Positions 29,393-31,356 of a stretch of 64,000 bases of DNA are shown here, piece after piece (position 1 is the stretch's first letter; each line of letters starts with the position of its first letter). The position numbers and the translations under genes were made by a program. The DNA comes from Candidatus Tumulicola sp. (GTDB lineage Bacteria > Vulcanimicrobiota > Vulcanimicrobiia > Vulcanimicrobiales > Vulcanimicrobiaceae). The notes under the pieces are model-generated. The model was given only the letters and a program-made list of their open reading frames with translations, had not been told where the DNA came from and did no database searches. The stretch is taken from NCBI GenBank assembly GCA_036490475.1, contig DASXDT010000005.1:496001-560000 (forward strand), read 5' to 3'.

Positions 29393-29472
29393 GGAGCGAC
29401 GCTTCGGGGTCGCGGCAAGTGCTCCCGCGCAGGGGCTTCGACCGCAGCGCGCCAAGTTTAGGAGAGCCTAAT

Positions 29473-31356
29473 ATGTTGTGTTGGTTTCGCCTAATCACGC
29501 GCATCACGATACTGGCGCTCGCGGTCCTCGCCGCGGGCGTTTTTCTACCGCAGCGCGCGCTGGCAGATGCCGACGAGCAACCCGGAGCGACTACGTCGGC
29601 GCTCGGCATGCAGCCCATTCAAGGGCCGGTTCCGAGAGCGACGCCGGCACCCGGAGAATCTGCTACGTTCCGGCGATCCGATGGCGCCTATCAAGCGCGA
29701 CCGGATGGATACGGGCGAACCAAAGTGTTTCACATCGTCGAACGCGCCGCGCCGTGGGAGATTTCGCCCGGTCTTACCGTTATGGCGAATACGTATAACG
29801 GCGTCGTTCCCGGTCCGGCGCTGGTGGTCGACCAAGGCGATACCGTCGTGATCGATTACCTCAACGATGACGCGACGCCGGATACCATCCATCTACACGG
29901 CATTCACGACATTCCGGTTTCGATGGACGGCGTCGGAGGTATCTCGCAACCGTTGGTACGTCCCGGACAACGATACGAATACCGATTCGTCGCCGATACA
30001 CCCGGCACGTTCATCTATCATACGCACGACGACGAAGCGATGCTGAACTCCGGATTGTACGGGGCGATTATCGTACGCCCCGCGCATCCGCTGCCGGCCG
30101 AACGCAATCTCGGACACGATTTTCTCGAGATGATCTCGTCCTGGCAAATTCAGAGTTCGGCCGAAAACGTCTTCACGCTCAACGGCAAACAATTTCCGGC
30201 GACGCAAACCCTCGACGTGCATAAAGGCGAACGCTTTCGCATTCGCTGGATCAATATCTCGGGCGAAGAGTTCCATACCATGCATACGCACGGGCATTAT
30301 CAACACCTCGTCGCGCGCGACGCGCAGCCGGTTCACGACGACGATATGGAAGATACGGTTCTGCTCGGACCGGGCCAGCGCATCGACGTCGTGGTCGACG
30401 CCAATGCCGATCCCGGAACGTGGCTGATCCATTGTCACGTTGCCGACCACATCGAAGGCGCCGACGGCATGCCGGCCGGATTGATTACCGCCATCCACTA
30501 CATCGGAACGCCGAATACGCTGACGTCGATGTATCGCGCGATGAAACCGGTCACGAAAGCGAGCGCTCCGCGCGCGTTGAGTTTTTCGTTGACGCTGTTA
30601 CTCGGCGCGATCGCCGGCTTCACGATTTTCCTCGGCTTACCGATCGCTCGTGCGCGCAAGGTGTCGCCGCAAACGGTGGCGGTACTGAACGCGCTGGCGA
30701 TCGGCATTCTTCTCTATTTAGTCGTCGAGATCGCGACCAACGCCATCGCTCCGATCAGCAGCGGCATTTCGTCGTGGAAGGCCGGAACCACGCATTTTCC
30801 GCTCGCCGCCATATCGGTCTTCATTGCCGGCCTCCTGATTGGCTTGGTCGGCTTGGGAAGCGTTGCGACTACCTTCGCGCGGCGCGCTTCCGCGCACGCC
30901 GACAATCCGATGGTGTTGTCGGCCATCATCGCCATCGGTGTCGGCGCTCACAACTTTGGTGAAGGCCTTGCCATCGGCGCATCCGCAGCATCCGGCGCCA
31001 CCGCAATCGCGGTTGCGTTGATCGTCGGGTTCGCACTGCACAACGCCACCGAAGGCTTCGGCGTTGCCGCACCCATGGTCGGCCGTTTCGTGCCGTCGTG
31101 GTCGCAAATCGCACTGGCCGGTCTGATTGCCGGCGGTCCCACGTTCTTAGGAACAGCTGTCGGATATGCATTTTACTCGCCGCTATTGAGCGTTCTCTTC
31201 TTAGCGATCGCCGTCGGAGCGCTCGTATTCGTTATCGGCGAATTATGGTCGGTGCTGCGCAAGACCGGTCTGACGCCGCTGGTGACGATCGCGGTGTCGG
31301 CCGGGTTCGTCGTCGCCATGGCAACCGAGCTATTCCTCGATTTCAATAACGGCTAA
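29473..31356 (+). CDS. Multicopper oxidase fused to ZIP-family metal transporter
   Basis: A 627-residue protein. Residues 1-33 are a signal/anchor helix. Residues about 75-350 are a two-cupredoxin multicopper oxidase with all four copper-ligand clusters: HLHG (about 140), YHTH (about 182), HTMHTH (about 267) and HCHVADH (about 320), the last with a slightly stretched axial Met. Residues about 370-627 are eight hydrophobic segments of a ZIP transporter with the metal-site motifs HNFGEG (about 492) and HNATEG (about 522). The domains are in one uninterrupted frame. The ATG at 29473 has AGGAGAG ahead. The likely design is a periplasmic metal oxidase tied to a divalent-metal permease; the metal is unknown. 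Confidence 0.92.
   Translation: MLCWFRLITRITILALAVLAAGVFLPQRALADADEQPGATTSALGMQPIQGPVPRATPAPGESATFRRSDGAYQARPDGYGRTKVFHIVERAAPWEISPGLTVMANTYNGVVPGPALVVDQGDTVVIDYLNDDATPDTIHLHGIHDIPVSMDGVGGISQPLVRPGQRYEYRFVADTPGTFIYHTHDDEAMLNSGLYGAIIVRPAHPLPAERNLGHDFLEMISSWQIQSSAENVFTLNGKQFPATQTLDVHKGERFRIRWINISGEEFHTMHTHGHYQHLVARDAQPVHDDDMEDTVLLGPGQRIDVVVDANADPGTWLIHCHVADHIEGADGMPAGLITAIHYIGTPNTLTSMYRAMKPVTKASAPRALSFSLTLLLGAIAGFTIFLGLPIARARKVSPQTVAVLNALAIGILLYLVVEIATNAIAPISSGISSWKAGTTHFPLAAISVFIAGLLIGLVGLGSVATTFARRASAHADNPMVLSAIIAIGVGAHNFGEGLAIGASAASGATAIAVALIVGFALHNATEGFGVAAPMVGRFVPSWSQIALAGLIAGGPTFLGTAVGYAFYSPLLSVLFLAIAVGALVFVIGELWSVLRKTGLTPLVTIAVSAGFVVAMATELFLDFNNG

Follow-up and report, generated by a model that had tools for sequence, protein, structure and literature searches.

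The closest described counterpart of the protein analyzed here comes from ammonia-oxidizing archaea, where the multicopper oxidase (MCO) MCO1 adjoins a ZIP permease and has been proposed to oxidize Cu(I) ahead of uptake through that permease (PMC7785015, PMC7819960). The Nitrososphaera viennensis pair NVIE_000600/NVIE_000590 (PMC7785015) resembles our protein in combining a two-domain MCO with a ZIP transporter under an oxidation-then-import hypothesis, but it is archaeal, encoded by separate genes and upregulated under copper limitation, a response that counts against the manganese/iron reading favored below. With respect to the oxidase part, two-domain MCOs are trimers whose trinuclear site is formed between two chains, and in those of type B the type 1 sites face a central tunnel (PMC13151041). 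Cellvibrio CjMCO (PMC13151041) likewise has its type 1 copper in domain 2 and His ligands distributed over two domains, but no transporter part has been described for it. With respect to the transporter part, BbZIP (5tsa, 8j1m) has the same eight-helix fold, an HNxxEG motif in TM4 and a Glu in TM5, but lacks an oxidase and features a TM6 Glu where the fusion has a conserved threonine, T557. Yeast Fet3/Ftr1 also couples an oxidase to a metal transporter, but as two proteins, with a three-domain MCO and an Fe(III) permease of another family.

The original prediction for this locus knew of no system with this exact fusion. Our survey of the open literature likewise found no description of the fusion or its reverse-order counterpart, nor of the operator and the Nramp exchange discussed below, while the association of MCO with ZIP as such was already on record in archaea (PMC7785015, PMC7819960) and recurs as gene pairs in several phyla. 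What appears to be new is thus the fusion itself, its reverse-order version and the link to Nramp; both protein families and the separate-gene archaeal pair were known before. Most bacterial two-domain MCOs, including the crystallized 3gdc, have no known role, and the manganese/iron-type operator and Nramp exchange presented here offer a directly testable function.

A complete oxidase and a complete transporter in a single frame

The window, a 64,000-nucleotide stretch of contig DASXDT010000005.1 from Candidatus Tumulicola sp., contains a single open frame running from an ATG at 29473 to a stop at 31356 (627 amino acids), with an AGGAG ribosome site immediately 5' of the start. It encodes, in this order, a signal peptide, a complete type B two-domain MCO, a short linker and a complete eight-helix ZIP transporter (Table 1). 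All four copper-ligand clusters and both ZIP motifs named at the outset are found in the translation (HLHG at residue 140, YHTH at 182, HTMHTHGH at 268, HCHVADH at 320, HNFGEG at 493 and HNATEG at 523), and the Pfam matches (Cu-oxidase_3, 4e-30; Cu-oxidase_2, 4e-25; Zip, 5e-7), the ligands, the structural models and the fold match to BbZIP bear out the claim that both proteins are complete and share one frame. The full-length model has a pLDDT of 88.8, and the nearest solved structures to its MCO part are 2zwn, 3g5w and 3gdc.

Table 1. Features of the fusion gene and its upstream region, in window coordinates
Feature	Position	Strand	Basis
Palindrome TTAGGAGAGCCTAA directly 5' of the start codon; predicted DtxR/MntR-family repressor operator	29458..29471	+	Upstream comparison
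Signal peptide, residues 1-30, cut likely after RALA	29473..29562	+	Sequence; model helix 2-24, low confidence 26-43
MCO cupredoxin domain 1, residues 95-205; His pairs 140/142 and 183/185; without type 1 Cys	29755..30087	+	Pfam Cu-oxidase_3 99-204; ligands 43/43
MCO cupredoxin domain 2, residues 215-345; type 1 H268, C321, H326, M333; His pairs 271/273 and 320/322 (type B)	30115..30507	+	Pfam Cu-oxidase_2; ligand table
Linker, residues 346-370, with conserved M353 and M357	30508..30582	+	M353 41/43, M357 43/43
ZIP transporter, residues 371-624, 8 TM helices, predicted N-out/C-out	30583..31344	+	Models; BbZIP fold Z up to 20.9; positive-inside loops
TM4 metal motif HNFGEG	30949..30966	+	H, N, E kept in 43/43 fusions and all solo ZIPs
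TM5 metal motif HNATEG	31039..31056	+	H, N, E 43/43; aligns with BbZIP TM5 site

Among the best 80 of 583 related stretches in the genome collection, loci L002-L045 hold the fusion in full-length, truncated or interrupted form, and almost all of them are labelled Eremiobacterota/Vulcanimicrobiota. Across 148 genomes of the phylum, most members of the window's own family have the fusion, as do related families within the class, and outside the class only MCO-type matches are found. The concern that relatives might always encode the two parts separately and that the frame might stem from an assembly join is dispelled by the 43 intact fusions, which keep nearly every ligand; together with the single open frame in most genomes of the class, they also rule out a frameshift artifact or chance. 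Conservation within the lineage, left as a prospect by the original prediction, is thereby established. The neighboring genes differ from genome to genome, and no conserved metal-gene neighborhood was found around the fusion in its own lineage.

A few individual loci deviate from this pattern. In L035:4920-6842 and L045:4860-6831 a frame change inside the MCO part breaks the fusion, through either sequencing error or a real split. The L037 contig, labelled Rhodospirillales, bears a typical Eremiobacterota-like fusion and is probably a mislabelled MAG. L085:2832-4052 encodes a ZIP-less relative with a single C-terminal helix in the ZIP's place, and its gene overlaps the end of the upstream frame.

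The oxidase part is of type B

Across an alignment of the 43 intact fusions, one of them the window's own, H140, H142, H183, H185, H268, H271, H273, C321, H322 and H326 are invariant, and H320 is replaced by Q in a single member. The axial position M333 holds M in 37 members, with H in 4 others and L in the remaining 2. Four His-X-His motifs are spread over two cupredoxin domains, and the type 1 Cys is confined to the C-terminal one (C321, 43/43), the corresponding domain 1 motif reading YHTH or YHSH, with no Cys. By the classification in PMC13151041, the placement of the type 1 Cys in domain 2 therefore makes the oxidase type B.

As to what such an enzyme might oxidize, the Cellvibrio type B enzyme acts on phenols (PMC13151041), and many fusion records stem, by their titles, from palsa and bog soils. 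The MCO could accordingly be pictured as a small laccase that destroys phenolic or siderophore-like chelators and frees manganese or iron for the adjoining ZIP; we regard this scenario as rather improbable.

The transporter part has a predicted ZIP fold with both ends outside

The Pfam Zip match scores 29.6 bits, below the cut-off of 35.1, and the ZIP identity was therefore checked by profile and fold. The subfamily profile matches BbZIP structures at E 1e-14; an AlphaFold2 model of the ZIP part alone (pLDDT 92) has eight helices and aligns with eight chains of BbZIP at Z 15-21, against 8.4 for the next, unrelated chain. This profile match and predicted fold outweigh the sub-threshold Pfam score, and the ZIP fold on which the original prediction depended is present in the model. 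The primary TM4/TM5 metal-site residues H493, E497, H523 and E527 are kept in 43 of 43 fusions, as are N494 and N524, and T557, aligned with the BbZIP TM6 Glu, is equally invariant.

Lys and Arg residues in the short loops, with the N-terminal linker excluded, number 8 on the predicted inside and 1 on the outside. Based on the signal peptide and the eight helices, we infer that the MCO and both ends of the ZIP are extracytoplasmic; as eight helices leave both ZIP ends outside, an external MCO is consistent with either domain order.

These assignments also bear on the yeast system, which the original prediction had offered as doing a related job. Ftr1 is a ferric permease and ZIPs carry divalent ions, which makes Fet3/Ftr1 a poor analogue. 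Passage of Fe(III) from a ferroxidase directly to its permease would agree with the oxidase-transporter pairing common to both systems and with iron as a possible signal for a DtxR-family regulator; by profile and fold, however, the transporter part is a ZIP, unrelated to the Ftr1 family, and we consider such channelling hardly credible.

A candidate DtxR/MntR-family operator at the gene start

Comparison of the regions upstream of the fusions revealed a palindrome, TTAGG-N4-CCTAA, at the start of the gene. It is perfect at 28 of 45 fusion loci and has at most one mismatch at 43, against a background of 0.07% of masked windows; both arms are conserved and the central four bases vary. The window's own genome holds five perfect copies in 3.3 Mb, the window's among them. 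A Shine-Dalgarno origin is unlikely: conservation of the CCTAA arm almost matches that of TTAGG, some loci have the palindrome extending across the start codon, and it is rare genome-wide.

In sequence, the half-sites are similar to those of the DtxR/IdeR/MntR type. The palindrome also lies 5' of four solo Actinomycetota ZIPs and occurs twice before a separate MCO-ZIP gene pair in Deinococcus QL22, which adjoins a DtxR/MntR-family gene. Such regulator genes stand beside three pairs (Deinococcus QL22, Arthrobacter and Sinorhizobium), of which only the Sinorhizobium one scores over the MntR cut-off. The window's genome has one DtxR-family gene (L139:1012-1815, minus strand). Its best score is as MntR, which speaks for the manganese/iron reading favored below, but that score is under the MntR cut-off, which counts against it.

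Related sites were seen elsewhere. A variant, TAAGG-N4-CCTTA, recurs 5' of solo actinobacterial ZIPs (L057, L058, L074 and L076). Another copy in the window's genome (C6:1601549; L138:1501-1514, L131:130-2796) lies 5' of a gene encoding a CxxCH protein, with a three-domain MCO next in line, and similar CxxCH genes with the palindrome occur in two other genomes, G088 and G008 (L156, L157).

The fusion and an Nramp gene exchange across genomes

A scan of 26 genomes of the family showed that, where the fusion is missing, the same palindrome lies directly 5' of an Nramp gene. The same Nramp was found in 20 further genomes, with the palindrome upstream at no more than one mismatch in 18 and the upstream region of one other cut by a contig end. 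Called at ≥67% identity in 55 genomes, this subtype is present in 20 of the 21 genomes without an intact fusion versus 8 of the 34 with one (Fisher p 1.3e-7; by genus 1.5e-5), all of them members of one family with a shared history and hence not independent samples. Given the common candidate operator and the near-exclusive distribution, the fusion and this Nramp largely replace each other across genomes. The complete genome G008 has kept an MCO on a single helix, has no ZIP of the fusion's kind, and possesses the Nramp; its remaining MCO gene is without the palindrome.

Two observations at the Nramp genes count against the manganese/iron importer reading. The palindrome is absent from the five other Nramp-family genes of the window's genome, and the palindrome-linked Nramp reads D-T-E-A where classic Nramps read D-P-G-N (L140:216-1493, L142:1523-2626, L145:212-1492 and L148:221-1492), which may reflect an unusual metal choice. 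The five Nramp-family matches and one ZnuA match in the window's genome, which also yields nine Cu-oxidase_3 matches, led us to reject the fusion as its sole metal importer. One of its Nramp-family genes (L120, C5:361535-362629) has an in-frame TAG and is possibly a pseudogene.

Oxidase and transporter have met repeatedly

The reverse order, ZIP followed by MCO, occurs in Alicyclobacillus acidiphilus, A. cellulosilyticus, a Deinococcales MAG and a Deinococcus plasmid (L052, L065, L073 and L083). It is sparsely distributed, with 1 case in 111 genomes of the Deinococcales MAG's order and 2 intact plus 1 broken among 59 genomes of the Alicyclobacillus order. This reversed fusion joins the same two families in one chain and also has its type 1 copper in domain 2, but its MCO belongs to another branch, nesting with solo MCOs of Alicyclobacillus relatives, and the TTAGG-N4-CCTAA palindrome is absent from its loci. 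Forcing both orders into one clade was rejected for the MCO part (p 0.002), and with it a common origin of that part; for the ZIP part, a single clade was not rejected (p 0.085).

Separate MCO and ZIP genes, adjacent or with a 4-base overlap, are found in Arthrobacter FB24, Chroococcidiopsis, Rhodococcus, Sinorhizobium, Deinococcus QL22 and Leptolyngbya; their MCOs are of type C, and both their MCOs and their ZIPs lie on branches distant from those of the fusion. The pair of Arthrobacter sp. FB24, whose MCO is the crystallized 3gdc (E 1e-204), also unites a two-domain MCO with a ZIP and has a DtxR/MntR-family regulator alongside, but its genes are separate, its type 1 copper sits in domain 1, its ZIP has an extra N-terminal region, and it is distant in both trees. 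As the MCOs of the fusion, the reversed fusion and the gene pairs occupy distinct branches, MCO and ZIP have, judging from the trees, been brought together at least three times and in both orders.

This recurrence argues against a loose tether, in which two independent functions would be joined only for membrane anchoring or co-expression. The MCO that G008 retains on a single helix and the many solo ZIPs of the same subfamily would agree with such a tether, which we nevertheless hold to be improbable. The repeated meetings, the overlapping genes and the two fusion orders suggest a functional partnership of oxidation with divalent-metal transport in bacteria.

The reversed fusions sit near copper P-type ATPases, DUF305, a two-component system or a four-helix copper-binding protein, and these surroundings, which like the missing palindrome count against the manganese/iron reading, speak for copper handling, whereby the MCO would oxidize Cu(I) to Cu(II) outside and the ZIP would import Cu(II) for cuproenzymes, or the protein would serve copper tolerance. 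The archaeal MCO1-ZIP hypothesis, with both genes upregulated under copper limitation (PMC7785015), and the conserved Met pair of the linker point the same way. The window's lineage, however, has a manganese/iron-type palindrome, no copper genes were found beside the fusion there, and the fusion exchanges with an Nramp importer; an importer would moreover be odd within a metal-export island. On balance we consider a copper role unlikely.

A proposed metal importer with its own oxidase

We favor, with a probability of about 0.5, a reading in which the fusion is a manganese/iron-regulated divalent-metal importer that replaces Nramp and carries its own extracytoplasmic oxidase, with Fe(II) or Cu(I) as probable substrates. 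Its predicted control switch and its uneven distribution among the soil bacteria of this little-known class point to a stand-in for a standard manganese/iron importer, and the predicted topology, the reversed fusion, the gene pairs and the putative operator fit a coupling of oxidation to divalent-metal import. When manganese (or iron) runs short, a DtxR/MntR-family repressor would leave the operator and the fusion would be made. Its MCO would be placed outside the cytoplasmic membrane, and because type B MCOs build the trinuclear site between two neighbors, three chains would assemble with an oxidase ring over the transporter. The ZIP part would import Mn(II) or Fe(II), while the oxidase would meet redox metals at the entrance and most likely convert Fe(II) to Fe(III) or Cu(I) to Cu(II), and the oxidized competing or harmful ions would thereby be excluded from a broad-range ZIP. 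The import role is supported by the predicted regulation and the Nramp exchange; the role that we infer for the oxidase is the weakest step.

A more specific version is a redox-gated importer that has replaced Nramp in many genomes: the trimeric MCO ring would form a catalytic vestibule above the membrane, and in its central tunnel, bordered by three type 1 sites, Fe(II) or Cu(I) would be oxidized and rejected and Mn(II) would pass on to the ZIP. We put this forward tentatively and find it doubtful in full. If true, the transporter would be selective by chemistry and not by binding alone, and an oxidase that sets an importer's selectivity would be a new way of choosing metals.

Additional genes around two-domain oxidases

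In several of the MCO-ZIP pairs, a gene for a Rieske-type iron-sulfur protein overlaps the end of the ZIP gene (L084:7006-7440, L086:7084-7503 and L087:7036-7455). Alicyclobacillus relatives, in turn, encode two-domain MCOs in tandem (L105:192-1454 and 1465-2625, and likewise L106, L107, L108 and L109), and the two copies have lost ligands in a complementary way. In one, just the His pairs of domain 1 survive; its partner retains just the ligands of domain 2 together with the type 1 Cys. This arrangement suggests an obligate two-gene, heteromeric MCO.
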